From a virus, in the IMG/VR virus record IMGVR_UViG_3300008050_000157, positions 1 to 33,130 of that record: 33,130 nucleotides of DNA, one strand, 5' to 3'. The translations under genes were made by a program, and so were the position numbers. Shown here one piece after another: positions 1 through 33,130 of the stretch. The stretch's first letter is position 1. Each line of letters opens with the position of its first letter. Below the pieces are notes generated by a model. That model had not been told where the DNA came from and did not search any database. It saw nothing but the letters and a program-made list of their open reading frames with translations.

Positions 1-769
1 AATAGAGCGCCCCATCTGTCAGGGCATCCCCGTCGTTGTCCAGTGTGGGGTCGCTGGCCTTCGCGCCAAGGTAATCATCATCAAAGGTGTCTAACGCTGC
101 CTCTGCGGCTGTCTGCGCCGACTGTGCATCCGTTACAGCCTGCGCCGTGGTGACAACATCGGCGTTCGTAGAAACAACGTCCGCATTTGTCAGAACCAAG
201 TCGGCTGCTGCCGCGTTCTCAGATACAAGTGCCGCCGCAGCTGACGCTGCCGAAGCGGTAACTGCCGCATCAGTATCGCCAGAGCTGTTCTCCAGCCCCG
301 TCAGGTCCGACTTCCATTTCAGGCTGCGCCCGGATACCGGCGTCGGGAAATTGAAATCCGTCACATTGGCATCGCTGTCGGTCATGCCAAACTTGCGGGC
401 CTGATTGGTAATAAACTGCTTGGCCAGTACCACCAGCTTGTCCAGCTGGGTGTTCAGGGTCGTGATATTGAACGGGCCCGTGGTCGGAAAATCGCTGCTG
501 CGCGTTGCCGACTGGTTCAGGGCAATGGTGATGGTGGTATTGGTGACGCCTGTATTCAGAACCACCGTGCCGCCGTCATAGCCGCCCGTCTTGGAGGTGT
601 CCGGTGTAACCGTATAGTCCGTGGTCAGGGTCTTGAGGGTGTCACCGTCGTAGACATCAAGATCCGCCTCGTCAAAAAACTCAAAGGGGATCGTGAAGTT
701 GGTTGTCGATGAACCACCAACGGCAATTTGTGTAAAGGTGGCTGTTGAGCCAATCGTAATATGAGCCAT
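1..769 (-). CDS. T7-like tail fibre protein, N-terminal part (runs off left edge)
   Basis: Virion tail fibre that would bind the host surface. The first 256 codons are visible and the frame is open to the window edge, so the receptor-binding C-terminus is missing. The N-terminus (MAHITIGSTATFTQIAVGGS...) has the beta-rich pattern of the T7 gp17 N-terminal domain that joins the fibre to the tail. It is followed at about residues 165-230 by an Ala/Asp/Val-rich helical stretch like a fibre shaft coiled coil. Then comes DPTLDNDGDALTDGALY, a motif recurrent in podovirus and siphovirus fibres. The ATG at 769 overlaps the stop of the preceding internal virion gene (TAATG), with GGAGAGG about ten bases upstream. 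Position after the gp16-like gene matches T7 order. The family call is from memory of such fibres. Confidence 0.85.
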   Translation of the reverse strand, partial: MAHITIGSTATFTQIAVGGSSTTNFTIPFEFFDEADLDVYDGDTLKTLTTDYTVTPDTSKTGGYDGGTVVLNTGVTNTTITIALNQSATRSSDFPTTGPFNITTLNTQLDKLVVLAKQFITNQARKFGMTDSDANVTDFNFPTPVSGRSLKWKSDLTGLENSSGDTDAAVTASAASAAAALVSENAAAADLVLTNADVVSTNADVVTTAQAVTDAQSAQTAAEAALDTFDDDYLGAKASDPTLDNDGDALTDGALY

Positions 770-3700
770 TATTCAAATACCTCTCCGGCTTCTTTCTGAA
801 CCCGATCAACCAGCCATGAAAAATAAAATAGATTGTTGTACGGAACCCACCTACGCACAGCTCGTGCGACATCGTTACTGTCGCTGTCCGGATCCGCGAG
901 GGAATAAATTAGATCCCCGGCCAGACTGATTGCCGGGCCCCCGGGCTGCCCCAGCTGCTGCGCAATGGTCGGGTCTTTCCAGAAGCTCTCGACGCCCAGC
1001 ATGGGGCGAAGCCCGTACTGATAACCGCTGGCAACCTCTGTCATGTTGTTGAGGTCCATGAGGATGCCCCCGGCCCCGGAGTAATCCCAGGCCTGGACAA
1101 AGCGGTCCAGACTGAGCAAGCCGCGGCTGTCGTATGACGGGGACTTCAGCATATCCACCAGATAACCCGCCGCCACCAGTGACAACATGCCGGACATGGC
1201 GCGGGCATCCCGCATCTGCAAGCCCGCCATCAAGGTCCGGAAGGTGGCCGACATACCAAAGGACTTGAACTGCATCATCAGCCCGCCGATCTGGCTGGAC
1301 TGAAAATTGATCTTCTCGCTGACGCCCGGCTTGATAACCGCGTTGTCAATCTCGCTGGCAAGAGCCGTGCGGAAGACCTTTACGGCCTCCAGATCATCCC
1401 ACTGTGCTGTATTGGCCAGATGCAGCTTGTTGCCCTTCTGCTCCTCGGCCGGCAGCTTGCGCCATTGCGCCACAAACCGCTTGGCCATGTCTTCATCGAT
1501 GCCAACCTTTGTCATTTTCATCAGATCGGACCGGGACAGGCTGCCATCGTCTACCCATTTGGCGGCAATACGGATCATTTCCGACTGGATAATGGCCCCG
1601 GAAAACCTGTCCATAACGTCGGTATAAGGTGACAGCAGGTTCGCAATGAACATGCGGTTGACGTTGCCGTGCAGAGCCTTCTCAAAGCGGGTGGATGCTG
1701 GCATGTGTATATCAAGGTCAAACATGGCGTCGAAACGACCATGCAGGGCCACCTCGGCGGCCTCTCCGGCCAGCTCCACCTCTATGCCCGCCCGTTTGAA
1801 ATCCTGTGTAGCATCCCCGAACCTTGCAAAGGCCCCCGAAAAGGCGTTGCGAAAGCCCACTGAAAAAGCTGTGCGTCCGACATCAGCCACAGCCGCGATA
1901 GATGCCTTGCCCATCAGGGCCAGCACCATCCAGCTTTTGGTGGCCTGAACGGCCCGGTAGGAAAGTGCAGACGGATCGGCCGGGATGCCGTAAACGCCCA
2001 GCACCTTGTCCCGTATGTCTTCCATGGCCTGACGCACCTTGCCCACCTCGGCCTCAAGGGCCTTGCCGGATTTTCCCTGTGCCGAGATCTCCTCCCACAT
2101 CATTTCGGTCAGATCATCGATGCGCGATTGACCGCTGGGATCGCCATAGCGTTCAGCCATGCCAATGGAAGGTGCCATGCGGCGGTGATAGAGGCGAATA
2201 ATCACCTCCATATCAGTCTCAATGAAGTCCACACGCTCACCATTGCCCACATCCACATCGATCAGGCGATTGCTGGGAATGTCCAGCTTGCGGGCCATCA
2301 TCGGGGTTGCCATGCCGTAGCCTTCCATATGGCCGGCAGACGCCATGATCTCCATTTCCCGCATGGTGGCTGCGACATTGGTATAGACATCATCAAGGAT
2401 GCCGTATGTCTCGGAGACTTCGCGGATCAGCTTCTGTGCTTCGCGGTTGCGGAGCTCAATGGCCGTGGTCTTGTCCTTGTAGATCGCATCGATGCGCTTG
2501 TTGATCGCCTTGATCTCGGCATCAGACGGCATGATGTGTGCAGAAGGCCATGCGTCCTCAAGGGCGCGCTTGACCGGACCGGACTTGCCATCCTTCAGAA
2601 TGTTGTCAATTGTCCTCTGGGCGCGCTCCAGGGCCCCCGCATCACGCCCGTACCAGTCTCTCAGGACGCCCAGCAGGGCCTCCCTGTGCTTCAGGGTGAC
2701 ATCCTGTCGCCAATAGCGGCTGAAGTGGCTCAGGGCCTCTGCATCGGCCACAGGGAGAACGCCATTTTTGTTCTGTGCCCTGTAATTCTCAATGCCCTGC
2801 ACAAGCTGATTGCGCTTTTCCTGCAATTCGGCCAGTTTTTCCAGCTTTTCACGGTAAATATCGAAGCCCTTGCCGCTGATTTTCTCCTGATAGGCCCCGT
2901 CACGGAACTTTGGATCGTCGCTGTCCAGCTTGCGGATTACTTCCGCCTCGTCCAGCAGGTCCTGGTATTCCCGGGTCAGCTTTTCACGCAAGGTGAGCTG
3001 GGCTTCGGACAATCCGCGGGTTTCACCCTGTTCAAAGAGATCATCAAGGATCTTCTGCTTGGCGTGCAGCTCCTCATTGATCTTCGGGATACGGTTTTTC
3101 TTCAGATAATCGACCTGCTTCTTCAGGGCTTCCGTGGATTTCTCCATGTAGCCCTTCTGGTCAAAGCGCAGCAGGGCCTTCTCAAGCCTGCGGATCCCGA
3201 ACACCCCGGCATCAGCTGCCCGCTGCCCCATGCTATCCATGTAGGCCTTGAAGGCTGCGGCCGCTTTCTTCACATGCGGATCTGCATGCTCCCCGCCGTT
3301 CAGGTAGGCGCGTGTGGCCTCGCGCTTGAAGGTGTCATATTGCGCCGTCTTGCCCTGGAACATATCCATGATCGATGTAACAGCATGGTTCATGGGCCCC
3401 ATGTTGTCCGTGTTCTTGCCCATGCTTTCCAGCCAGGCGTTATACATGCCGCTGCGGGCATCGATGGCCAGAGGGTTCAACAGCTTGGCCTGGGTAAAAA
3501 TCGACTGTGCCATGCTGTCGCCACGCTCGGCCCCAACTGTAAAGACCCCCGGTGCCCCGCCTGTCTCGTCGGCAAAGCGGGCAAGGGCGTTGCCCACATA
3601 ACCGTCAAACAGGTTGTTTTTCAGATACAGATAGGGATGCTGGGTCCAGCGCAGGTTCTCGATCTTTGTGCCTGTCGGCATCAGGCGGTCAGGATGATAG

Positions 3701-4995
3701 GACTTGGCAATGTCCACATAGTCGGAAAACTCGTCTGCATCCTTCGCCAGCGTTTCCATGCGGGCGTTGTAGGCTTCGTCTGTCTCGGAAGCGGTCTTGC
3801 GGAAGAAGGTCTTTGCCACCTCGGCGCGGATCCGCTGCTCCCGAAAAACGGAAAAGGAGACTTGTCCTGCCTCATAACTCAATACAGGCGCAAAATCAGA
3901 TCCATACTTTGCCTCAAGACGATTGGACAGATCGACAAATTTCAAATAGTTGGCAATCTCGCTTTCCGTATATCCGCGCAACTCACTAAAGGCGCGGACA
4001 TCACCACGATCATATGCGGCCCGTTCCTCGGCAGACCATGCCGAAGGATCAGAGTGCTTTTCTTCGCGTGACGCCCTTCGGCTGGCCTGGACAAATTCGC
4101 TAACTTCAGGATCATTCCTGATTTCCGGATCATACCCGGCTAAAACATCTGTGTTACGATCATATTCTGCCTTCAACACCGCATCATTGACGCGCACCTC
4201 GGAGTTGCCGGTAACATATCCGGCCCCGTCCTTCTCGACCTCGATCTTCACGCCAAGCGGCTGATCGGAACCATCGACAATTTTGGGATCATTCATCGGG
4301 CGGATCCCCGCCGTGATGTCCGGGTCCACGCTGTTCAGTCTGGTTCTGGCCTCGTTGGCCTTCCAGAAGGCATCATGGATCGTGGCCCAGTCGTCAAACT
4401 TGCGGCCCCCGATATGCCCGGCAATGCCGCCAATGCCCGCGCCAAGCAAGGTGGCCGTCCCTATGGCCATCATGCTTTCTTCCGGCGTTGATGTGGGATC
4501 CAGACCGGCCCTTGCCATTTCCTCTGCCGCCATGGATCCGCCACCGGCAATGGCACCGACCTTGGCGCCCTGCACAAAGCCCAGGCCCCTTGCCAAAGGT
4601 ATCGGGATCAGGTTCATGGGATCAGCTGCACCGGCCAGAAAACGCGACCAGCCAGCCCCGCCGCGGTTCATGTTCATGCGCCGGTTGGTATTGGTGTCGA
4701 TCATGCGTTTGATGCTCTGGAAGTGCGAAGGTGAACGGGCAACAGCCAGATCCTCCACATGATCCATGTAGCCATCAAAGCTCTCGTCCCGCAGGGGGGA
4801 GTAATCGGGATCATCGCGCTCTCCCGAAGGGTGCGCCATGGAATCCATGAACGACTGAATGGCCTGCCCCGGCAGGGTGTCCAGCATCCAGGCATTGCGG
4901 AAGTTTTGCAGGGGTGTCTGACCAAGCGGGTTTACCTGCTCCTCCCCCATGCGCTGTGCATGCCGGTCTTCCAGGGCTTTTGCAAACGGATCCAT
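769..4995 (-). CDS. Large internal virion / DNA-ejection protein (T7 gp16-like), 1408 aa
   Basis: Probable ejected core protein that builds the trans-envelope DNA channel. Length (1408 aa against about 1318 in T7), position just before the tail fibre and a C-terminal segment ending VRRWVPYNNLFYFSWL match the gp16 role. Two Gly/Ala-rich hydrophobic segments lie at about residues 128-157 and 176-197, and could insert in membrane. Residues 620-900 are charged and helical (many KLEKLAELQEKRNQL-type runs). I see no lytic transglycosylase motif at the N-terminus, unlike T7 gp16. The start overlaps the upstream stop as TGATG and the stop overlaps the fibre start as TAATG, so translation is probably coupled. 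Functional detail is inference from synteny. Confidence 0.8.
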   Translation of the reverse strand: MDPFAKALEDRHAQRMGEEQVNPLGQTPLQNFRNAWMLDTLPGQAIQSFMDSMAHPSGERDDPDYSPLRDESFDGYMDHVEDLAVARSPSHFQSIKRMIDTNTNRRMNMNRGGAGWSRFLAGAADPMNLIPIPLARGLGFVQGAKVGAIAGGGSMAAEEMARAGLDPTSTPEESMMAIGTATLLGAGIGGIAGHIGGRKFDDWATIHDAFWKANEARTRLNSVDPDITAGIRPMNDPKIVDGSDQPLGVKIEVEKDGAGYVTGNSEVRVNDAVLKAEYDRNTDVLAGYDPEIRNDPEVSEFVQASRRASREEKHSDPSAWSAEERAAYDRGDVRAFSELRGYTESEIANYLKFVDLSNRLEAKYGSDFAPVLSYEAGQVSFSVFREQRIRAEVAKTFFRKTASETDEAYNARMETLAKDADEFSDYVDIAKSYHPDRLMPTGTKIENLRWTQHPYLYLKNNLFDGYVGNALARFADETGGAPGVFTVGAERGDSMAQSIFTQAKLLNPLAIDARSGMYNAWLESMGKNTDNMGPMNHAVTSIMDMFQGKTAQYDTFKREATRAYLNGGEHADPHVKKAAAAFKAYMDSMGQRAADAGVFGIRRLEKALLRFDQKGYMEKSTEALKKQVDYLKKNRIPKINEELHAKQKILDDLFEQGETRGLSEAQLTLREKLTREYQDLLDEAEVIRKLDSDDPKFRDGAYQEKISGKGFDIYREKLEKLAELQEKRNQLVQGIENYRAQNKNGVLPVADAEALSHFSRYWRQDVTLKHREALLGVLRDWYGRDAGALERAQRTIDNILKDGKSGPVKRALEDAWPSAHIMPSDAEIKAINKRIDAIYKDKTTAIELRNREAQKLIREVSETYGILDDVYTNVAATMREMEIMASAGHMEGYGMATPMMARKLDIPSNRLIDVDVGNGERVDFIETDMEVIIRLYHRRMAPSIGMAERYGDPSGQSRIDDLTEMMWEEISAQGKSGKALEAEVGKVRQAMEDIRDKVLGVYGIPADPSALSYRAVQATKSWMVLALMGKASIAAVADVGRTAFSVGFRNAFSGAFARFGDATQDFKRAGIEVELAGEAAEVALHGRFDAMFDLDIHMPASTRFEKALHGNVNRMFIANLLSPYTDVMDRFSGAIIQSEMIRIAAKWVDDGSLSRSDLMKMTKVGIDEDMAKRFVAQWRKLPAEEQKGNKLHLANTAQWDDLEAVKVFRTALASEIDNAVIKPGVSEKINFQSSQIGGLMMQFKSFGMSATFRTLMAGLQMRDARAMSGMLSLVAAGYLVDMLKSPSYDSRGLLSLDRFVQAWDYSGAGGILMDLNNMTEVASGYQYGLRPMLGVESFWKDPTIAQQLGQPGGPAISLAGDLIYSLADPDSDSNDVARAVRRWVPYNNLFYFSWLVDRVQKEAGEVFE

Positions 4996-7900
4996 CAGCG
5001 TTTGATCCCTGTCATGCCGGTTGTGGCACCGGTTTTCTTAATCTGCGCCGCCTTCTTCTTGTCAGCCTGATCGGCGGCAATGGCCTCCTCGGTCTCCTGC
5101 CACTTCTGCCAGACAGCAAGATCCGCGTCAGCTTCACTCAGGATGTCCTGCCGTGCGGCGTGTTCCGCAGACAGGTCAATTTCGACATAGCCGCCCTTGT
5201 CTGTCTGTATCCGGGTCCAGCTGATACCATCATCAGCCCGGCCCCATACATTGTATATCCCCTTGCCGGTTTCACCGTTGCGCCTGGCATATTCAAATCG
5301 CACGTTTTCACCAAGCTTGATGGTGTCCAGATCAACACCGCGATAGCCGGAAACCTCCATGCCAGCCCGGACCTTTTCCCGCAGCGTTTCATAGAGCCAT
5401 TCGGCCCCGCGCTCGTCGGTGGCCCCGTATTCCTTTTCGATGGGGTTCTGCATGATGGCAGCCGTGCCAGTCTGGCTCATGCCCGGGGCCGGGCGCATCA
5501 GACGCGACACACCCCAGTCATGTTTTGACAGCACACGGCTGACAGCCGCCAGCATGGCGTTCTCGTTGGTATCTTCCGGATCCACATCGGTCTGTGCATA
5601 AAGATCCCGGTTGTCCAGAAACTCACGCTCCACAGCACGACGGAAGGCAGGAGACAGGGAAGAATACGAAACAATGCTGCCCTGTCCGTCCTTCTGTGTG
5701 CTTTCAAGGGGAATGTTAAAGCGATAGCCGCCTGTTGCAGCGGCCCCGTTCACGAGATCACCAACGGCATCGATCATCAAGGTGTCGATCACTGTCTGCT
5801 GGGTGGTGTGGTCAGCCCCCAGGGCAAGCCGGTTGTCCTGTGCCGGTGTGCGTTTGCCCCGCATGATGGCGTCAACACCCCGCAGGACCGTGGCATCCAC
5901 ATGCTCATCATCACCCTGCCGCTTGTCGAGATACTGATAGGCCGCCAGCACCTTGTTGTTCAGGGAGGCGTCGGCAATGATTGTCAGGTTGGCGTTCTTC
6001 AGAGCGCGGTACATCTTCAGGCTGGCGTTGATATTGACGCCCCGGTCCTCACCTTCACCCATCAAGGCAGAAGACATAAACAAGGTGGCCCGGGCAGGCA
6101 CCCAGCCGCCCCTTGTCCATTTGACCAGCTTCTCCGTGTCACGCTGCCATTCCACAGGTGAGCCATTCCGTCGCAGGGCTATGGCCTCGATTGTCTCGCC
6201 ATCCTTCTTGCTGCCGACCATTGTCTGCTTGCCGGCAAGCCGGTACAGGATCGGCCCCTCCAGCTTCATCTGCTTCTGCATGGCAACCGCCTGGGCCTTT
6301 GCTTCCTCAAGCTGCTGGCTGGCAATCCGTAACATGCTGGTGCCATCAAGGGGGTGCCCTGCCCGGTTGACGGTGTCGTCAAATACCTCCTGAAGGCCCT
6401 GCCCGAACAGGGGATTGATCTGCTCCCCCTGGGCAATCATCGCCATCAGACGCGTTTCATTTACAGCCTCATCCACCTTATCCCTGATCGAGCGTTTCTC
6501 GGCAGCCGCTGCCATGCGGTCCTCGGATACCTTGCGGCGATGGTCCCCGGCAATCAGGGAAACAATGCGCATCTGCTGGTCCACCGGGATCTCGTCCCCG
6601 TCCTGCAAGGTCGCCAAAATCTCTTCCACTTCGGGATTGTCCGACTGCCGGGCGATGGGCAGAACCAGCTCAACCATGATTTTACCCGCCTGTTCCAGCT
6701 GCCGCTTGCGCAGATCCTGCTCGACCACATTGTCCAGCCGCCGTCCTTCAGCCTTCATGGAGGCCAGCGTGGACAGGTAGCTGCTGTAAAGCTGCATGGC
6801 ATGGCCGTTGCTCATGCCCTTGCGCCGGTCATTGAGGCCAGCCAGAACCTTCTCGTCTGCGCCCAGCATTTCCAGCATGGACGACATCATGTCGATGCGC
6901 TCTCCGGTGAGGGCGGCAAGGCTGGCGTCTTCTTCCATCTGCTTGTCATGGGCCCGGACCCGCACAATGGAACTCAGGGCCGACTGCATCAGGGAAACCT
7001 GACCTTGCGGGCTCAGGTCCGGATCCTCCTGCCCCTTCATCAACGAGGCATAATTGATCCCCAAACCCTGTGCCAGATCCATGAGGATGTTCATCTGGCC
7101 TTCGGCAACGGCGTCGGCGTTTGCCGTGCGCTTGCCGCTTTCCGAGACGGACACCGCCTGGGACAGCATTGAGGCAAGGGTCGTGCCGTCAACGTCCGTG
7201 ACATCAAGGCCGCTGAATATCTTGAGGGCATCCGGATGCTGGGCGGCAATCCGGTCAAAAAGAATTGTTTTCACGGCGTTGACCGTAAGCTTTTTCTTCT
7301 CCTGCTCCAGATTGGTCAGGACAGGTTCAACCGCCTTCAGGCCACTGACAAGGGCTGTGCGCTGTGCACTGGTGAATTTCTCAAGGTTCGGGAATTTGTT
7401 TGCGGCAATGTCCACCATCATCTGCGCCCGCTTGACTGGCGTGGCTCCGATGAAAGCCCCCTGAACCCGGGCTGCCGAATAGCCAATGGCGGCCTGGTCG
7501 ATCAGGGCCTTGCCAGCTTCCTTGCCATAAGCCCCGCCCTTGATGCCGCTGCGGATGCTTTTGGTGTAGGCCGCCAGGGCTTCTTTTGCTTCAGGATCGC
7601 TTGCAGAAACACCGCGCCGGGCTAGATCTGTCAGGTCGGACTTGTGCTTTTCGTTGCGGATCGCCAGGCCCTTCTTGAAGTCCTGAAAATCCAGTTCCGA
7701 TTTCTTCTGTGTCAGGGAGCCGTAATACTGGCTGGTCAGCTTTTGCCCGTAGGCCACGGTGGCCTCGACGGCAGAGGGATCGATAACAGCGGCCAGGGCG
7801 CGGATCCTGTCCTCGGCAAGGGCGCGGAAGCGTTTGGGATCGTTACGCAACTCCTCGCTGTTGGCAATGTTCGTGATCGAGGTATAGACATCAGTTTCAA

Positions 7901-8219
7901 GTTCCGTGGCATAGCGGGCTTCCAGCTGCTCGCGCAGCTTGGCCCCATAGAAGGTCTGGCTGGAAGGCAGCTCGGACGGCATGGCAAGGGCCCCCGTCAC
8001 CGGATCGCGGGTGAAGCTGACCTTCGAGGCCGCAGCCACCGCTTCGCGTTTGCGCTTCTCACCGCCGCTGGCAAAGGCAAAGTCCTCGGCAGGCCCAAGG
8101 GCCGCTGCCGTATCCTGACCGATCGTGGAAGGGGCAAACCCGGCTGACCGGGCCCGCCGGACAACACCGATAGGCCCTATGCTGGTGCGCTGTTGTGTGC
8201 GTGTGAAATTCCTGGGCAC
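4995..8219 (-). CDS. Internal virion protein (T7 gp15-like), 1074 aa
   Basis: Large helical protein between the gp14-like and gp16-like genes, where T7 encodes gp15, an ejected protein of the internal core. Nearly the whole chain is soluble, charged and Ala/Leu/Gln-rich, with no membrane segment or enzyme motif I recognise. The N-terminus is basic and unstructured (MPRNFTRTQQRTS). The C-terminus is Lys-rich (KKKAAQIKKTG) and could bind DNA or the portal. It starts 12 bases after the gp14-like stop and overlaps the next start by TGATG. T7 gp15 is about 747 aa, so this is markedly longer. The assignment rests on synteny and size. Confidence 0.75.
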   Translation of the reverse strand: MPRNFTRTQQRTSIGPIGVVRRARSAGFAPSTIGQDTAAALGPAEDFAFASGGEKRKREAVAAASKVSFTRDPVTGALAMPSELPSSQTFYGAKLREQLEARYATELETDVYTSITNIANSEELRNDPKRFRALAEDRIRALAAVIDPSAVEATVAYGQKLTSQYYGSLTQKKSELDFQDFKKGLAIRNEKHKSDLTDLARRGVSASDPEAKEALAAYTKSIRSGIKGGAYGKEAGKALIDQAAIGYSAARVQGAFIGATPVKRAQMMVDIAANKFPNLEKFTSAQRTALVSGLKAVEPVLTNLEQEKKKLTVNAVKTILFDRIAAQHPDALKIFSGLDVTDVDGTTLASMLSQAVSVSESGKRTANADAVAEGQMNILMDLAQGLGINYASLMKGQEDPDLSPQGQVSLMQSALSSIVRVRAHDKQMEEDASLAALTGERIDMMSSMLEMLGADEKVLAGLNDRRKGMSNGHAMQLYSSYLSTLASMKAEGRRLDNVVEQDLRKRQLEQAGKIMVELVLPIARQSDNPEVEEILATLQDGDEIPVDQQMRIVSLIAGDHRRKVSEDRMAAAAEKRSIRDKVDEAVNETRLMAMIAQGEQINPLFGQGLQEVFDDTVNRAGHPLDGTSMLRIASQQLEEAKAQAVAMQKQMKLEGPILYRLAGKQTMVGSKKDGETIEAIALRRNGSPVEWQRDTEKLVKWTRGGWVPARATLFMSSALMGEGEDRGVNINASLKMYRALKNANLTIIADASLNNKVLAAYQYLDKRQGDDEHVDATVLRGVDAIMRGKRTPAQDNRLALGADHTTQQTVIDTLMIDAVGDLVNGAAATGGYRFNIPLESTQKDGQGSIVSYSSLSPAFRRAVEREFLDNRDLYAQTDVDPEDTNENAMLAAVSRVLSKHDWGVSRLMRPAPGMSQTGTAAIMQNPIEKEYGATDERGAEWLYETLREKVRAGMEVSGYRGVDLDTIKLGENVRFEYARRNGETGKGIYNVWGRADDGISWTRIQTDKGGYVEIDLSAEHAARQDILSEADADLAVWQKWQETEEAIAADQADKKKAAQIKKTGATTGMTGIKR

Positions 8220-10668: not shown

Positions 10669-11250
10669 CTACCTCCGTGCTGCGATAAAGCGGCTTGTGT
10701 CCACCTTCGATGTGGTCTGCTGAACGCTGTCCCGGTTACGGGCCTTGCGCAGCTTGACCTCGGCCTTGCCGTCCCACAGGGTAGCCAGTTTGTCGTCACC
10801 GGCAACGGCGGCGGCGAACAGGGCGGCGAGGGTGAACTCTGCGGCCATGCGAAAATAAGGGGGCCAGGCGGTTTCATCAGGACGGGTCTGGAAATCACAG
10901 ACCACCGTTTCATCGGCCCCGGCATTACAGAAAACCTGATCGCCATAGACGGCATAATCAATATCTACATCATTGATCGTCACGCGAATGACGTTGATAC
11001 AGTTACTCGGTAGTTGATAGGCCGCATCCCACAGAGCCTCCGGCTCCGAAAGCAAGCGGTTAAGGCTGTCCTGAACCACCGTAAAACGCCACGGAAAATC
11101 CGTAATCAGATCCTCGACCACTTCCTCATAGATGGTATCGGCTACCGTGGCCTCGGTGGAGATGGCCGAAAAAGAAGTAATAGGATTGGCTCCGATGAGA
11201 ACCAGCCCCTTTGAGGCGACGGCAATATCTGTTGTGGCAATGCTGCTCAT
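10669..11250 (-). CDS. Tail tubular protein A / adaptor (T7 gp11-like), 193 aa
   Basis: Ring protein joining portal to nozzle. Length is close to T7 gp11 (196 aa). The segment TIYEEVVEDLITDFPWRFTV and then EALWDAAYQLPSNCINVIRV is the usual pattern of this family (helix, the LPS.C turn, then a beta strand). The C-terminal part is an Ala-rich helix (EFTLAALFAAAVAGDDKLATLW) and ends in a basic tail. It is first in the tail part of the operon, after a 79-bp gap from the head genes that contains a hairpin. Confidence 0.87.
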   Translation of the reverse strand: MSSIATTDIAVASKGLVLIGANPITSFSAISTEATVADTIYEEVVEDLITDFPWRFTVVQDSLNRLLSEPEALWDAAYQLPSNCINVIRVTINDVDIDYAVYGDQVFCNAGADETVVCDFQTRPDETAWPPYFRMAAEFTLAALFAAAVAGDDKLATLWDGKAEVKLRKARNRDSVQQTTSKVDTSRFIAARR

Positions 11251-11329: not shown

Positions 11330-11617
11330 CTAGTCTGTGTCTGTTACGACGACACTGGTGCCGTCAGAGACATCAACCGTAGTCCCGTCATTTGACAGAA
11401 CATTCATCAGGTCAACTGATGTGATCGTGGCCGGAGCCGCAACCGCATCAACCTGCTGGGCGATGATAACATCACCGACCTCAAGCATGTTGACCGCATC
11501 GCCGGAAAAATAACCGGCGGTGTTCATGGTCGCCTTGGTATCCGTGGTGCGGAAATGCCAGAGAGCAAAGCCACCACCACCAGCCAGACGACTGAGATAC
11601 TGAGAATTGAAAGCCAT
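11330..11617 (-). CDS. Small head/decoration-type structural protein, 95 aa
   Basis: Short beta-rich protein directly after the major capsid gene. It begins MAFNSQYLSRLAGGGGFALWHF and ends with an Asp/Thr/Val-rich strand pattern (NDGTTVDVSDGTSVVVTDTD). I recall similar proteins in this position in alphaproteobacterial podoviruses, where they are taken to be virion or capsid-decorating proteins, but no enzymatic feature is visible. It starts 18 bases after the capsid stop, with GGAG about eight bases before the ATG. A structural role is inferred from position, size and composition. Confidence 0.6.
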   Translation of the reverse strand: MAFNSQYLSRLAGGGGFALWHFRTTDTKATMNTAGYFSGDAVNMLEVGDVIIAQQVDAVAAPATITSVDLMNVLSNDGTTVDVSDGTSVVVTDTD

Positions 11618-12622: not shown

Positions 12623-13387
12623 TTATTTCTTGGTGTCCAGCGCCTGAAACCCTGCCGTGACACGCTTCACAAAGTCCTCGTCACGATGGCGCGGATCGCG
12701 GTACTTCGGATCCTGCATCATGGTTTCCAGTTCCAAACGGCTCAAAGGCTGATGCCCGCCATCGTCACCGTCACCAGGAGCCGGGGCCATGTCACCGGAT
12801 GATTTTTTCATCACTTCTTCCAGCGCCACAATCATGTCGGCGTTGTCGGTGTACTTCATCATGGTGTTGTAGGTGGATTCAGAAAGGTTCTTGCCCGCCC
12901 ACAGGTCAACGCGCTCGATCCGGGCCTGCCCGTTTTCGCCCAGCTTGGCGGTTTCCCCGGCGATGTCGGGCATCATGCCGATCTGCGACTTGGCGTAGAA
13001 GCCAAGCAGGCCCTGGAAGATTTCGCCCTTGATCCCGTTTTCATGTGCCCAGGTCTTGAACTCGGCCAGCATGGGATCCTCGGCGTCCAGCTTGAAGTCC
13101 AGCCCTTCCGGCACCACGCCGTCCGGCAAGGTGACTTCATAGCCATCAATGTTTTCCGGCACGCCTTCCTTTGCAGCCGCCTGGAACTCGGCGCTAATGT
13201 CGGCCCGCAATTGTTCGTCGGTCTTGCCCAGCTTGCCCTCAAGGTTCTTGTAGGCTTCGGACAGGGCTTCAACATCCTTGTACTTGCCAAGGATCAACTC
13301 GCCCTCACCTTCGCCATCGCCTTCACCGCCTCCGGCACCGCCGCCCTCGGCGTCACGGTAGATCTTCATTCCGGGGATAATGTTCAT
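12623..13387 (-). CDS. Capsid assembly scaffolding protein (T7 gp9-like), 254 aa
   Basis: Internal scaffold that directs procapsid assembly and then leaves. It shows the standard composition: an acidic Gly/Glu-rich N-terminal stretch (residues 13-31), the segment GKYKDVEALSEAYKNLEGKL at about 34-53, the VTLPDGVVPEGLDFKLD strand-turn, a helical middle, and a charged C-terminus rich in Asp/Arg (LETMMQDPKYRDPRHRDEDF) which in this family contacts the capsid. The ATG at 13387 overlaps the stop of the Bbp19-like gene (ATGA). Position between portal and capsid supports the call. Confidence 0.87.
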   Translation of the reverse strand: MNIIPGMKIYRDAEGGGAGGGEGDGEGEGELILGKYKDVEALSEAYKNLEGKLGKTDEQLRADISAEFQAAAKEGVPENIDGYEVTLPDGVVPEGLDFKLDAEDPMLAEFKTWAHENGIKGEIFQGLLGFYAKSQIGMMPDIAGETAKLGENGQARIERVDLWAGKNLSESTYNTMMKYTDNADMIVALEEVMKKSSGDMAPAPGDGDDGGHQPLSRLELETMMQDPKYRDPRHRDEDFVKRVTAGFQALDTKK

Positions 13388-13656
13388 GCCTTCTTCTCCA
13401 GTCCAGCTTCAAAGCGTTGGGCGATAATCCCAACGAGAAAACGCTGCCCCTCAAGGTGCAGCAGGGAATTTGTGTCCACATTCGGGCCAGAGACATTCTG
13501 GATCGAAATTGATTTCAGATAGTCCAGCACGATCTTGCCATCCGCGCCCCTGAAGACAGATGCAAAGGCAAGGTTGAGATCCTTTTCCTGTGCCGGTGTT
13601 CGGGAAAATCCGTCATAGCGTGACGACAAGGTTGGGGTCTTCGGTTCTCGCTTCAT
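13384..13656 (-). CDS. Small conserved phage protein, Bbp19-like, 90 aa
   Basis: Protein of unknown role found between portal and scaffold genes in podoviruses such as Bordetella BPP-1. The core LAFASVFRGADGKIVLDYLKS followed by NSLLHLEGQRFLVGIIAQR is the family pattern: a helix, an F..G.DG.xVL.YL turn and a helix ending LEGQR. Its ATG at 13656 overlaps a TGA (13655-13653) that is in frame with the portal gene's conserved tail, which shows that the portal frame once ran right up to this start. Its own stop overlaps the scaffold start. Confidence 0.7.
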   Translation of the reverse strand: MKREPKTPTLSSRYDGFSRTPAQEKDLNLAFASVFRGADGKIVLDYLKSISIQNVSGPNVDTNSLLHLEGQRFLVGIIAQRFEAGLEKKA

Positions 13657-13748
13657 CCTGGAAGTACTCCTTTGATGATTTCAGTCGGGTCAATGCCATT
13701 GCCAGCCGCATCCCCCATCACCTGGCCGGTTTCCTTGGCCAGACTTTT
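13653..13748 (-). other. In-frame C-terminal tail of the portal gene beyond a TAG codon
   Basis: Directly after the portal TAG (13751-13749) the same frame stays open for 31 codons (KSLAKETGQV ... EIIKGVLPG) and ends in TGA at 13655-13653, overlapping the next gene's ATG as in the other tightly packed gene junctions of this operon. The peptide looks like the normal Lys/Gly/Ala-rich end of T7-type portals. Either the last part is lost by a nonsense change, or TAG is read through at some rate, or there is a sequence error. Confidence 0.7.
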
Positions 13749-15224
13749 CTATTCGTCCTGCGGCCGGATCAAATCCGTGCTGACTTCGTACCAGTCGGCC
13801 AGCTGCTCCACGAACTCGTGACCTTTAACCGATGTCTGGAACTGCTGCGGCCCCAGGATCTCGTTGGCCACCTGGGCGAAGTTGATGTGCTGCTTGATGT
13901 CCTCGTTGCGCTGGGCCCGGATCATCGGGCTGGTGGCGCGTATGCGGATCTCGGTGCCGTTAATCACCGGCAGCTCGATCTTGCCCTGCTTCTTCAGGAT
14001 ATAGACCACCCGCTTGATGATCTGGTCCACATACTCGGTTTTCAGGCGGGCAAAGGGAGATCCCAGCACCCGCGACATTTCCGCCATACGCTCGGCGGTT
14101 TCCGTGGCTGACATCGGTGTGCCTTCGCGCCGCCCCAGGGTGTCGTTGTAAAGCGCCTTGTTGATGTTGTGGCGCATGTCCTTGAGGATCAGCTGACTGA
14201 CATCGAAGTTACCCGGCGGCTGCAAGGGAGACAGGCCCGTCGATCCCACCGCGCGGGGAATAACCGTGCCCGGCACCAGACGGATATTATGGGGATTGAT
14301 AACGCCATCATCATCAGCCTGCCACATGCCGGCGATACCCATCTCGCCGTTTTCAAGGACCAGCTGCACCACAAGGTTTGCGGTCTTGATCGATGCCAAG
14401 GCGTTGAAGATCGGGCCGCGCCCGTAGACCTCGCCTGCCGTCTTGGACCAGCGCGCCGTGATCCACGGACAACTGCCGGAGCCTTCCCAGCGATCCTGAT
14501 GCAGCATGTGGCTGCCCTTTTCAAACAGGACACAGTGGTCATATGCCTCCACGCTGTCGTTTGATCTGTCGCGCACCGTACACTCGATAAAGGTCAGATC
14601 CTTTTCCGGCTTGTCCTCGACGCATTTCCGCAAATCATCATTGAGTGTGGCCTTGGGCCATGTCGCCATGATGTCCCGCGCCTTGACCCTGCGCTTGCGA
14701 TAGCGGCCATCCACCGCCCCGCCCGGGCCCGCCTCAAGATAGACTTCAGCCATGGGCACAGAGGAGAAGCGCAAGGGCTCCGTCAGGTCGCCCTCATCAA
14801 TAATCATGTTACCGGTGCCGACGCCAAGATCCTGGAAGGTTTCGTGGCCTTCAGTCTGGTAGTTGGAGTTGTTGATGGCCTCAAAAACAAACTCTGTCAC
14901 ATCGGACAGGTCTTCCTTGATCTGGCGTTGTTCATCCCCCTCCAGATCCTTGAGCATCCCCGGTGCTGCCTCAATGGGCGCAAATCGGGTGCCGCCCGGC
15001 GTCATGCCGGAGATCATGCGGCTGGCAAATTCCGGTACACCGACCACAGCGGTGTCGTCAAAGATCAGATCGTCGCCCCGGTCCCCTTCAACGCGGGTAC
15101 CAAAGCCACCCCGACCCGGCATGGTGTAATCGAAGCAATCCCGCCAGACTATTTCCCAGGTTGACCGGCGTTTCTCGGCCAGCTTGAACCGCTTGATGAG
15201 CTTTTTTTCTTTATCGGTAAACAT
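13749..15224 (-). CDS. Portal / head-tail connector (T7 gp8-like), 491 aa, C-terminus cut by TAG
   Basis: Dodecameric ring through which DNA enters and leaves the head. The family pattern is clear from start to end: RRSTWEIVWRDCFDYTMPGRG near the N-terminus, LIFDDTAVVGVPEFASRMISGMTPGGTRF, the stretch ETFQDLGVGTGNMIIDEGD, the wing/stem region around AGEVYGRGPIFNALASIKTAN, and the GTPMSATETAERMAEMSRVLG segment. The reading frame stops with TAG after LIRPQDE, but a further 31 in-frame codons follow that look like native portal tail. TAG also ends other genes here (large terminase, resolvase, SSB), so the code is not reassigned. The truncated product is close to T7 gp8 in length (536 aa) and may still function. 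Confidence 0.9.
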   Translation of the reverse strand: MFTDKEKKLIKRFKLAEKRRSTWEIVWRDCFDYTMPGRGGFGTRVEGDRGDDLIFDDTAVVGVPEFASRMISGMTPGGTRFAPIEAAPGMLKDLEGDEQRQIKEDLSDVTEFVFEAINNSNYQTEGHETFQDLGVGTGNMIIDEGDLTEPLRFSSVPMAEVYLEAGPGGAVDGRYRKRRVKARDIMATWPKATLNDDLRKCVEDKPEKDLTFIECTVRDRSNDSVEAYDHCVLFEKGSHMLHQDRWEGSGSCPWITARWSKTAGEVYGRGPIFNALASIKTANLVVQLVLENGEMGIAGMWQADDDGVINPHNIRLVPGTVIPRAVGSTGLSPLQPPGNFDVSQLILKDMRHNINKALYNDTLGRREGTPMSATETAERMAEMSRVLGSPFARLKTEYVDQIIKRVVYILKKQGKIELPVINGTEIRIRATSPMIRAQRNEDIKQHINFAQVANEILGPQQFQTSVKGHEFVEQLADWYEVSTDLIRPQDE

Positions 15225-15504: not shown

Positions 15505-16221
15505 TCAGGCTCCGATCTGGTCATTGGAGGGGAAGCCGCGCCAGCCACCACTGAGCAGGGACCGGAAGCCGCGGGCCGGGCGATACAGGTTTGCCTCGTC
15601 GTCCAGGCTTTCCTCGGCTTCAGCACCGGCGTTCAGGGTAGCGGTCCTTGGTTTAGCCGCAGGCTTCGGGGCCGGTGTCTCTGGCGGTTTGATGTCAGAC
15701 GGCTCAATGTCGGCATGCCCCTGCCCTTCGGGCGAGATCTGGCCCTCCGGTTCCGGTGCGTTCTTGCCCAGCATGGACGGGCCGGAAGCCGTGCCGCCGC
15801 CCGTTATAGAGGTGCCGACATTACCGGCATTGGGATTGTCCGGATGCAGACCGTCGTTCACATTCGCTCTTGTCATTGCATTGTGAACACCAGTCAGCCC
15901 GGCCAGCAAACTGCCGCCAGGGATAGCCAGGGTTATTGCGTTGACACCGCTGCCAAGCAATCCAGCTGTGGTCTGGTCCTGTGTCTCCGCAATGCCAACT
16001 TTCGCCGTGCCTGCAACAGCACCGGCGATGGCATCGCCAAGACCTGACGGACCAATATTCTCCTGGCCTTCATTGAAGGCTTCCATTTCCGCCGTATCCA
16101 TGACAGCGGCTGTATCCTGCGTTACACCAAACTTGCCGGTTGCCGGACCAAAAGGTGACGACATCGAGCTTACATCGTTAAAGCCACCGGCCCCGCCACC
16201 TTCGCCACCGCCTTTACACAT
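15505..16221 (-). CDS. Gly/Ala/Pro-rich protein of unknown function, 238 aa
   Basis: Low-complexity protein between the acetyltransferase and portal genes. It starts MCKGGGEGGGAGGFND, a style common for virion-associated proteins near podovirus portals. Residues 60-115 include a hydrophobic Ala/Gly/Leu segment (GLGDAIAGAVAGTAKVG and AITLAIPGGSLLAGLTGV) that might enter a membrane. A Pro/Glu/Lys linker spans about 150-200, and the C-terminus reads FRSLLSGGWRGF, matching the RSLLS motif of the next protein. An ejected or internal virion role is possible but unproved. The start is three bases after the previous stop. Confidence 0.5.
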   Translation of the reverse strand: MCKGGGEGGGAGGFNDVSSMSSPFGPATGKFGVTQDTAAVMDTAEMEAFNEGQENIGPSGLGDAIAGAVAGTAKVGIAETQDQTTAGLLGSGVNAITLAIPGGSLLAGLTGVHNAMTRANVNDGLHPDNPNAGNVGTSITGGGTASGPSMLGKNAPEPEGQISPEGQGHADIEPSDIKPPETPAPKPAAKPRTATLNAGAEAEESLDDEANLYRPARGFRSLLSGGWRGFPSNDQIGA

Positions 16222-16224
16222 AAG

Positions 16225-16683
16225 CTATTCCTCGTACAGATTGCCGGTTGGCCGGAAACCGGCCCCGGTGTAAAGGGCATGCGAGGCTTCGGGATCGATG
16301 CCCAGCGTATCGCCCAGGAATTTCTTGACCGCGCCCTGCTCATTTGCCCAGGCCACAAAGGCTTTCAGCATGTCTTTCGCCACACCCTTGCCCCTGGCAT
16401 CCGGCATCACAAAAATCATCTGGTCTGAGGCAGAAAGGTCGCGGGTAAACCAGCGTTCATAGACATGCCCGACGATGAAGCCCAGCAGATCACCCTCCTC
16501 ATCCTCTGCCAACCGGATAAAAAACTGGTTCTCACGCTTGAGCCATCCGGATACAGCCTGTTTGGCCTTTTCCAGATCCAGATTGTAGGCCGTATAATTG
16601 CCGGACGCCTGCAACATCAGCAGTCCGTTGGGGACCAACCCCTCAAACTCATCGATGTTCGGCTTGCGCAGCTTAATGTCCAT
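16225..16683 (-). CDS. GNAT-family N-acetyltransferase, 152 aa
   Basis: Predicted acetyl-CoA-dependent acetyltransferase. The motif A region FVMPDARGKGVAKDMLKAFVAWANEQGA (about residues 91-118) carries the R.GKGV acetyl-CoA pyrophosphate-binding loop. It is preceded by the strand GDLLGFIVGHVYE and followed by the usual YTGAGFRPTG end strand, so the fold looks complete. The ATG at 16683 has GGAG six bases upstream, better than the ATG at 16695. GNAT genes recur between terminase and portal in podoviruses; the substrate is unknown. It overlaps the end of the upstream gene by 11 bases. Confidence 0.82.
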   Translation of the reverse strand: MDIKLRKPNIDEFEGLVPNGLLMLQASGNYTAYNLDLEKAKQAVSGWLKRENQFFIRLAEDEEGDLLGFIVGHVYERWFTRDLSASDQMIFVMPDARGKGVAKDMLKAFVAWANEQGAVKKFLGDTLGIDPEASHALYTGAGFRPTGNLYEE

Positions 16684-17146
16684 GTCTTGCTCCATCGAAG
16701 TCGAAAATCACCTCTGCGCCCCTTTTTTTCAACGCACAGAATAATTGCCAGGGCGTCAGGGCCCAGCACCGGCGCACACCAAGGAGCTGCTTGATCCACG
16801 AAATGCAGTAAACAGGCATGCGCGGCAGAAACACCGGGCCATTGTTCTCAACCGTGAAGGCCAGCACCGCAAAGCCGCTTTCCTTCATGTATTGCAGGGT
16901 GGCGTTCACGATCTCTGGCGGCAGAACCTCGATGTGCAGCCGTGCCGCGCACCATTCGCAGTTGATCCACTGTCCGGACACGGCGTCATAGCGAAAAACA
17001 AAGGCATGACTGAAGCCGGGGCGCACAAACCAGCGCCACGGCCTCGGCATTGTGTTGCCAATGTCGGTGAAGCCTACAAGCCACCGCGGCGCCGGTTGCT
17101 CCAGCCCCCGTTGCCCCGCTTCTGTTCCCTCTTGCCGTGGTTCCAT
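16673..17146 (-). CDS. Unknown protein, possible permuted NlpC/P60-like fold, 157 aa
   Basis: I do not recognise this with certainty. It has a His in GFSHAFVF (residue about 47), a Cys about 65 residues later in VYCISWIKQLLGV (about 114), then ALTPWQLFCALKKRG. The order His, then Cys followed by a helix and a TP..L...L motif, resembles permuted papain-like (NlpC/P60) hydrolases, so a cysteine hydrolase is possible. The ATG at 17146 has AGGGA nine bases upstream and is favoured over the ATG at 17155. The first 24 codons overlap the end of the terminase gene in another frame. Confidence 0.5.
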   Translation of the reverse strand: MEPRQEGTEAGQRGLEQPAPRWLVGFTDIGNTMPRPWRWFVRPGFSHAFVFRYDAVSGQWINCEWCAARLHIEVLPPEIVNATLQYMKESGFAVLAFTVENNGPVFLPRMPVYCISWIKQLLGVRRCWALTPWQLFCALKKRGAEVIFDFDGARHGH

Positions 17147-26284: not shown

Positions 26285-26866
26285 ATGACCAGTGATTTAA
26301 AGACCAGAACTGCGATACTAGATTGGATGAAAGAGACAATGGAAACCCATGATCTCAGCGCAGAGGCATGGGCAAGCAAGGCTGACATTGCCCCAACGAC
26401 GATCACGCAATTCGTTAATGGTAAGAGAAAATTCATACCATCAATGTCAACTTTAACACGATTAGCAGAGGCAACCGGACAGTCTGTCCGGTTTGGCGTA
26501 CATACGTTTGACCGGATTTCAGTAGCGAAAGTAAAGGTGCTGAAGTTTAACTTCAGGGGACAGGTAATGAATGTTGAGTATAAGCAGGTTAGTACCAGCA
26601 TAGTTGATGACGATGCATTTGGAGTACAGGTTGATACGCTTACCATGTCACAGGCAGGGATTTTTCCAGGAGATATAATCGTTTGCCTGCCACCGGAACA
26701 GGCAGTTGTTGGCAATACAATCCTTGCGGTAACAGACAAGGGCGTCAGCCCATTCCGTTACTATCCGCCCACATTACTGCCTGCTTCTGATGGCGAGGTA
26801 TCGATAAATTCGACGGACGCAAACATCATTGGCGTGGCAAAAGAACTGATAAGGGTGCTGGACTAG
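26285..26866 (+). CDS. CI-like repressor, HTH plus degenerate S24 (LexA-like) domain, 193 aa
   Basis: Lysogeny repressor by position and domains. The N-terminal HTH is at about residues 25-50 (SAEAWASKADIAPTTITQFVNGKRK). The C-terminal LexA/S24-like fold spans about 108-190 (AFGVQVDTLTMSQAGIFPGDIIV, GNTILAVTDKGVSPFRYYPPTLL, INSTDANIIGVAKELI). The usual nucleophile motif G-D-S-M is replaced by V-D-T-L-T-M, and the Lys of the catalytic dyad appears to be Arg158, so self-cleavage looks unlikely. The gene is visibly more AT-rich than its neighbours. The ATG at 26285 is used because the ATG at 26267 lies inside the operator. A strong terminator follows. Confidence 0.8.
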   Translation: MTSDLKTRTAILDWMKETMETHDLSAEAWASKADIAPTTITQFVNGKRKFIPSMSTLTRLAEATGQSVRFGVHTFDRISVAKVKVLKFNFRGQVMNVEYKQVSTSIVDDDAFGVQVDTLTMSQAGIFPGDIIVCLPPEQAVVGNTILAVTDKGVSPFRYYPPTLLPASDGEVSINSTDANIIGVAKELIRVLD

Positions 26867-26873
26867 CGGCTGC

Positions 26874-26934
26874 CAGATCGACGCGGCCCGTGCCCCGAAA
26901 GGGGCCGCGTCGATCTGACCGCCGCTATTATTTT
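26874..26934 (+). terminator. Terminator after cI, 16-bp stem
   Basis: A 16-bp perfect stem (26874-26889 with 26902-26917) around a 12-base loop, extended by an outer GCGGC/GCCGC pair (26866-26870 with 26921-26925) and followed by TATTATTTTG. It separates the cI transcript from the right early promoter that starts four bases later. Confidence 0.88.
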
Positions 26935-31126: not shown

Positions 31127-31350
31127 GCAGGATCAAGAACGCCATGGAAGACTGCCCGTCCTGTGACGGGATCGGCGGTCCAATCTACATTGCAGAGGGG
31201 GATCCGCCTATCCAGACCTGCCCCCAATGTGACGGGCGCGGCACAATTCTGGTCACAGGGTCAGCGGATTATGCACAGTCCGGAAATGAAAAGCCCCCAA
31301 TTTCTGCTGAGAAATCAGGGGCTTGTGTTGGTAGCGGAGGAGAGACTTGA
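31123..31350 (+). CDS. DnaJ-type zinc-finger protein whose end runs into attP, 75 aa
   Basis: Two CxxCxGxG units: CPSCDGIGG (Cys11, Cys14) and CPQCDGRG (Cys33, Cys36), which together bind one zinc as in DnaJ central domains. After residue about 48 the sequence loses character: its last 20 codons run across the tRNA terminator hairpin and into the tRNA 3' end, antisense to them. The functional part is probably the first 45 residues. It is the last gene of the right operon. Confidence 0.6.
   Translation: MSRIKNAMEDCPSCDGIGGPIYIAEGDPPIQTCPQCDGRGTILVTGSADYAQSGNEKPPISAEKSGACVGSGGET
31239..31259 (+). repeat. Left copy of a 21-bp direct repeat around attP
   Basis: The 21 bases CGGCACAATT...GGTCACAGG are perfectly repeated at 31599-31619. 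This copy is in the zinc-finger gene. Two such copies are not expected by chance in a window this size. They could be integrase arm-type sites or the trace of a duplication or insertion. Confidence 0.85.
31289..31324 (-). terminator. tRNA-type intrinsic terminator
   Basis: On the minus strand AAGCCCC and GGGGCTT pair (7 bp), then after a 2+2 internal loop ATTTCT/AGAAAT pair around a 4-base loop, and TTTT follows. It stands four bases after the CCA of the tRNA fragment, as terminators of host tRNA genes do. In the phage it would stop rightward late transcription before it runs into int antisense. Confidence 0.82.
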
Positions 31351-31378
31351 ACTCCCGACACGCGGATTATGATTACGC
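31329..31378 (-). other. attP core: 3' part of elongator tRNA-Met(CAU)
   Basis: On the minus strand this reads as tRNA positions 27-76: the anticodon loop TCATAAT with anticodon CAT (31371-31369), the TCCGC anticodon 3' stem, variable loop, T arm GGGAG-TTCAAGT-CTCTC, 3' acceptor CTCCGCT, discriminator A and CCA. The 5' anticodon stem half pairs at four of five positions; further upstream no D arm or 5' acceptor strand follows. So only the 3' half is present, as for a phage attP that rebuilds the tRNA on integration. Crossover is probably near the anticodon loop. Confidence 0.88.
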
Positions 31379-31612
31379 CTCCTTCTCCCCGTTGTTTCGC
31401 GTAAAACCCTTGGTGACAGGGAGATACAGCGTGGCAAGCGTGGTCAATGGCGGCACGATGAACGGATAAATGCGTCACAAAAATGGACACAGTGCATCCT
31501 TTCAGCGGCGAGCCGGGGCGTCAGTATAACAGGGGGCTTGCCGTGCTTTGCGCAGTGTCCTGAACCATAGGCATCTATGGAGCCAAAGCCCTCAACCCCG
31601 GCACAATTCTGG
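31379..31612. other. Right side of attP, non-coding
   Basis: About 230 bases without a convincing gene between the tRNA fragment and the last lysis gene. Contains an inverted repeat CCATAG-gcat-CTATGG (31565-31580) and most of the right 21-bp repeat. It probably holds the integrase and accessory sites of the P' arm. A TATACT (minus strand, about 31527) has no fitting -35. Confidence 0.45.
31565..31580. repeat. Inverted repeat CCATAG-gcat-CTATGG
   Basis: Six-base perfect arms with a 4-base loop, about 20 bases from the right 21-bp repeat. It lacks a T run in either direction, so it is more likely a protein-binding site (integration factor) than a terminator. Confidence 0.5.
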
Positions 31613-31619
31613 TCACAGG
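31599..31619 (+). repeat. Right copy of the 21-bp direct repeat around attP
   Basis: Identical to 31239-31259, same orientation, starts 360 bases apart. It covers the stop codon and 3' end of the last minus-strand lysis gene. Confidence 0.85.
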
Positions 31620-33014: not shown

Positions 33015-33062
33015 TTAGCGGCCTTGACCGCGCTGACTACCTATTTTGTCTGATATGTTCAC
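33015..33062 (-). CDS. Mini-ORF MNISDKIGSQRGQGR
   Basis: 15-residue ORF starting with GTG that overlaps the stop of the gene cut by the window edge (GTGA). It shares MNISDK and the later GGTCAAGGC nucleotides with the mini-ORF at 32964-33008, so the two form a degenerate tandem duplication. Confidence 0.3.
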   Translation of the reverse strand: MNISDKIGSQRGQGR

Positions 33063-33130
33063 GCTGGTGTCTCGTCTACAACGGTCAGGCATGAGGGGTC
33101 AGCTTCAAACGCGATTAGATAGTCAATGTA
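33059..33130 (-). CDS. C-terminal end of an unidentified phage gene (runs off right edge)
   Basis: Only the last 23 codons are visible (YIDYLIAFEADPSCLTVVDE then TPA). It is on the minus strand upstream of the lysis cassette, where genes downstream of the tail fibre are expected if the genome is circular. No identity can be given. Confidence 0.5.
   Translation of the reverse strand, partial: YIDYLIAFEADPSCLTVVDETPA

Follow-up and report, generated by a model that had tools for sequence, protein, structure and literature searches.

A lone in-frame TAG ahead of the conserved C-terminal tail of a podovirus-type portal gene: probably a recent base change or a consensus error

The gene described here is very probably an ordinary podovirus portal gene carrying an in-frame TAG, ahead of a conserved C-terminal tail, that arose by a single recent substitution; the substitution is either a true allele or a mistake in the consensus sequence. 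The evidence is divided about evenly between a real allele and a consensus error. The sequence analysed (the window) was a virus record of 33,130 bases, positions 1–33,130. The probabilities expressed below are judgements and not computed values.

The portal (head–tail connector) open reading frame (ORF) lies on the minus strand and encodes 491 residues up to the TAG (13749..15224). Residues 7–485 were aligned with positions 2–488 of the 489 positions of profile PF12236 (E = 9.7e-94), a full-length family match, and the ORF also matched phrog_332 (E = 4e-80). The interrupted gene is a podovirus-type portal of the PF12236 family. Counted from the ORF start at 15224, the TAG (13751–13749, minus strand) is codon 492. 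In the same frame, a further 31 codons follow (13656..13748, minus strand), encoding KSLAKETGQVMGDAAGNGIDPTEIIKGVLPG (13748–13656) and ending in TGA at 13655–13653. This TGA, taken as the ancestral portal stop, overlaps the ATG of the next ORF (13384–13656, minus strand) by 4 nt as ATGA (13653..13656, minus strand). The next gene encodes a Bbp19-like protein of 90 residues (PF25181, E = 1.2e-7), and a Shine–Dalgarno-like AAAGGAG, read from the sequence and probably serving this gene, is located within the tail codons (13667..13673, minus strand). A 4-nt overlap is also found at the junction of 13384–13656 and 12623–13387, and the same four-base overlap joins the portal to the next gene in most near relatives. 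The first-pass annotation had described the TAG, the 31 open codons, the terminal stop/start overlap and its likeness to other junctions of the operon, and all of this can be read directly from the sequence.

Judged by homology, a profile search and codon positions, the 31 codons are the true, ancestral C-terminal tail of the portal. With the window protein extended through the TAG, tblastn gave unbroken alignments to the portals L071/L003, L073/L004 and L134/L052 (whole-protein identities of 66, 54 and 53%, respectively) as far as a shared ending LP. The portal end common to the window, L071, L073 and L134 is DE[K/Q]K..A..TG..M..AA..GIDP..I..LLP. A hidden Markov model (HMM) of the tail was built from 16 near-relative tails with the window excluded. 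The 31 window residues scored 26.9 bits against it (E = 5e-7); the best of 1000 shuffles scored 10.6 bits and, among the 1059 open segments of the window, no other approached this score, which bears out the earlier description of the tail as portal-like. Among 81 relatives the column of the TAG is always a sense codon (Arg in 39, Gln in 23 and others in the rest), for example AAG in L071, CAG in L073 and L149, and CAA in L134. Every one of the 81 portals continues past this column, by 18–78 residues (median 30), and none ends at it. The tail past the TAG column is thus a trait of the relatives that lies outside the Pfam profile; in the window it is encoded, but behind the TAG.

The tail is under protein-level constraint, as is the body of the portal gene. 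The differences between the window tail and those of its relatives fell mainly in third codon positions, as in the portal body, with 13/9/24 differences in positions 1/2/3 for L071, 10/9/22 for L073 and 14/9/22 for L149; the constraint is visible, though all of it may predate the TAG. The tail was also considered as a separate short gene, since an internal GTG/ATG start exists. This was rejected: the tail is homologous to the portal ends of the relatives, in which there is no separate gene. Leu-Pro or Met-Pro stands just before the stop in 29 of the 81 relatives, which seem to make up all of the clade that has a 'WYE' motif ahead of the tail (among them L071, L073, L075, L091, L099, L111 and L123), and the window portal ends in LPG (13656–13673). 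The residues preceding this dipeptide are of very unequal length and composition; it is possibly a C-terminal docking motif.

The age of the stop was assessed by comparison with the tail of the nearest relative, L071. Identity to the outgroups L073 and L149 is 13/30 for the window tail and 13/30 for the L071 tail, and in eight of 11 comparisons the BLOSUM sum of the window tail against the outgroups was equal to or better than that of L071. In a simulation of unconstrained change at 0.1 substitutions per site, a mean of six of the 31 residues were altered and a new stop arose in 18% of the tails. No sign of long neutral drift was found in the window tail by the outgroup comparison with L071. 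Because the tail has diverged no further than that of L071 and has not drifted, the TAG is very recent, or is absent from the phage itself, or the tail is still translated. A degenerate pattern search for contigs in which the TAG might vary found no sequence of the same species, among records from which very close ones may have been withheld; an earlier search with a tail pattern gave six matches, none with a portal.

Broken genes were screened over the approximately 10 kb for which relatives are available (about 8.7–19.2 kb), the left part (769–8219) and the early region having too few relatives. Across this region no gene other than the portal, with its TAG at 13751, contains an in-frame nonsense codon, and no frameshifted gene was found. 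This TAG was crossed by 74 ORFs from relatives in the gene's own frame and was the only such site in the screen. The six-frame search gave many out-of-frame artefact matches, and ORFs extending over stops upstream of a gene's start were set aside. Intact ORFs are the rule in the related contigs (103 portals, 77 TerL, 73 MCP and also tail genes). Two related portals are broken, L214 by an in-frame TAA and L212 by a frameshift in a coverage-1 contig. The TAA of L214 (at about 5190) is in the N-terminal part of the portal, and its contig was binned with a horse-faeces alphaproteobacterium. At the edges of the window, an ORF resembling the N-terminus of a tail fibre runs off the left end (1–768) and the end of another ORF is found on the right (33060–33130, minus strand); the contig may represent a circular genome that lacks a segment there. 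A 26-nt inverted repeat is present at 26864–26927, its copies 92% complementary and separated by 12 nt.

TAG is a genuine stop in this phage and its code is unchanged, since TAG ends six other genes, stop columns are shared with relatives and no tRNA gene was found. The first-pass annotation had named three such genes, terL, resolvase and ssb, and had concluded that TAG is not reassigned. All three (TerL, RusA-like resolvase and SSB) end as stated, as do 10669–11250, 11330–11617 and 16225–16695 (acetyltransferase-like), and for 10669–11250 and 11330–11617 the relatives stop at the same column. The search for tRNA genes covered the window, and part of the genome may lie beyond the contig ends. 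Downstream of 16225–16695 (minus strand) the ATG of the next gene (15505–16221, minus strand) follows three bases on in the same frame, so that readthrough there would give a 239-codon extension; this junction looks ordinary.

An integrase is encoded (PF00589 match) and the phage is therefore probably temperate. Between the integrase and the lysis genes, at about 31331–31360 (minus strand), a sequence resembling a tRNA 3′ end finishes in CCA and is followed by a terminator. It is likely to be the attP core, judging from its sequence and with a score against the Rfam tRNA model of 14.1 bits, which is below threshold. An exact 21-nt direct repeat, CGGCACAATTCTGGTCACAGG, flanks this site at 31239–31259 and 31599–31619; its copies are possibly integrase arm sites. 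The attP-like sequence is flanked by phage genes, the integrase on one side and the holin and endolysin on the other, which suggests that the contig derives from free phage DNA (a free or circular form) and not from a decaying prophage.

An alignment of 68 sequences, from the window and the loci, served as input for an AlphaFold model of the read-through portal (mean pLDDT 77.8). The model matches solved T7-like portals, the best being 9efk (E = 9.7e-30), with 8ck0 and T7 gp8 also matched. The window portal thus shares its sequence family (PF12236) and predicted fold with T7 gp8, LME-1 orf12 (9efk) and Carin1 (8ck0), and LME-1 orf12 likewise has a C-terminal stretch of similar length past the aligned part; the window gene differs from these portals in having a TAG ahead of its last 31 codons. 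Two helices, 489–508 and 513–520, are predicted at the C-terminus with modest confidence (63–67 over helix 489–508, and 54 and 36 in the blocks at the very end). According to the model, almost the whole of both helices would be lost through a stop at codon 492. In T7, the core proteins gp14 and gp15 and the small protein gp6.7 are located on the helical barrel of the portal (PMC11784390). In P22, the barrel consists of C-terminal residues 603–725, which are folded in the virion and for the most part unfolded in the procapsid (PMC5290284). By analogy, the missing piece of the window portal would be at or near the barrel, where in T7 the ejection core docks; a matching internal virion protein is encoded in the window (769–4995, phrog_342).

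In the preferred reading, a single recent substitution would have converted a sense codon to TAG within an ordinary portal gene. Read literally, ribosomes would stop at the TAG and produce a portal without its terminal helix; stop/start coupling to the next gene would be lost, although that gene would retain a ribosome-binding site of its own. A real change would imply that the tail is dispensable or only partly needed, or that the genotype is unfit. In favour of a recent change or an error are the alignment of relatives as distant as 53% identity through a column at which no portal ends, a tail that is constrained like the body and free of drift, the solitary position of the nonsense codon in the 10 kb compared, the intact structural genes of related contigs and the normal use of TAG as a stop in six genes; set against it is the lack of a same-species contig showing variation at the site. 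A damaging lesion in an essential gene should be rare in a free phage, which is the form that the contig suggests, and this weighs against the preferred reading. The part of the preferred reading in which the consensus or assembly is wrong, and the sampled phage carries a sense codon at this site and makes a single long portal, was given somewhat less than an even chance. It needs a single substitution and agrees with the intactness of the rest of the comparable genome and with a tail that is not relaxed, and the frameshifted portal of L212 suggests that such errors occur in this type of data; against it, substitution errors are rare in assembled consensus sequences. The integrase would also allow the sequenced copy to be an integrated prophage released from selection for virion production, but no other compared gene is broken and the contig continues across the attP-like tRNA end, on either side of which there are phage genes. 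This weakens the idea of a decaying prophage, which was rejected as very improbable. Reassignment of TAG to glutamine (code 15) would suit the frequent glutamine at the TAG column. The conserved stop columns of TAG-ending genes, the failure to find a suppressor tRNA and the single in-frame TAG in the compared region leave it a negligible chance, and it too was rejected. In code-15 phages TAG is read as Gln, as shown by proteomics for gut crAss-like phages (PMC9523058). The likeness is an in-frame TAG in a structural gene, whereas the window has only one, uses TAG as a true stop in six other genes and encodes no suppressor tRNA that was found.

The remaining reading is functional amber readthrough, in which a minority of ribosomes would insert an amino acid at the TAG (UAG is known to be misread as Gln) and the dodecamer would consist of short subunits together with some long ones bearing the core-docking tail. 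This is unlikely. In its favour, the tail remains intact and in frame under protein-level selection, and the stop/start overlap at its end is preserved. Tail conservation is nevertheless neutral on this question, because a very recent lesion would leave the same pattern. UAG is read through more frequently than UAA, tRNA-Gln misreads UAG in E. coli, and a U at position +4 is associated with low readthrough (PMC5289835); here the +4 base is A. A 7-bp hairpin (13721..13743, minus strand) starts 8 nt past the first base of the TAG. By local energy it stands at rank 478 among 1650 positions along the portal gene, and its stem is not shared by relatives, so it was judged to be ordinary and was rejected as a readthrough element. 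No Rfam match for an RNA element was found. Structure is not required for bacterial readthrough, and the lack of a stimulatory structure is thus weak evidence. Also against readthrough are the absence of the stop from all 81 relatives compared and the fact that the predicted short form would be the sole tail-less portal of its family here. The window also has no detected gene for a suppressor tRNA, and no precedent for amber readthrough in a phage portal was found in the literature library searched. The Q-beta A1-type coat protein, made by UGA readthrough, resembles this case in that an in-frame, coding-like extension lies beyond a stop codon. There, both stop and extension are fixed; here, the extension is the ancestral end of the protein, the stop is UAG and it is kept in no relative. 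The first-pass annotation had proposed a recent nonsense mutation, a sequencing error or amber readthrough yielding a minor long portal that regulates head completion. The first two fit all of the evidence, whereas the last gained no positive support. More doubtful still is the reading in which a temperate podovirus would exploit leaky UAG termination to form portal rings where tailed subunits are a defined minority, and would thereby set the number of ejection-core proteins docking on the barrel.

A lone stop in one metagenomic contig, followed by a conserved tail, has the look of a recent lesion or a consensus error and not of recoding, and should be read with that caution. Were the TAG shown to be fixed and translated through, the portal of a dsDNA phage would provide a rare example of recoding, and a way to study how the portal tail is coupled to the ejection core.
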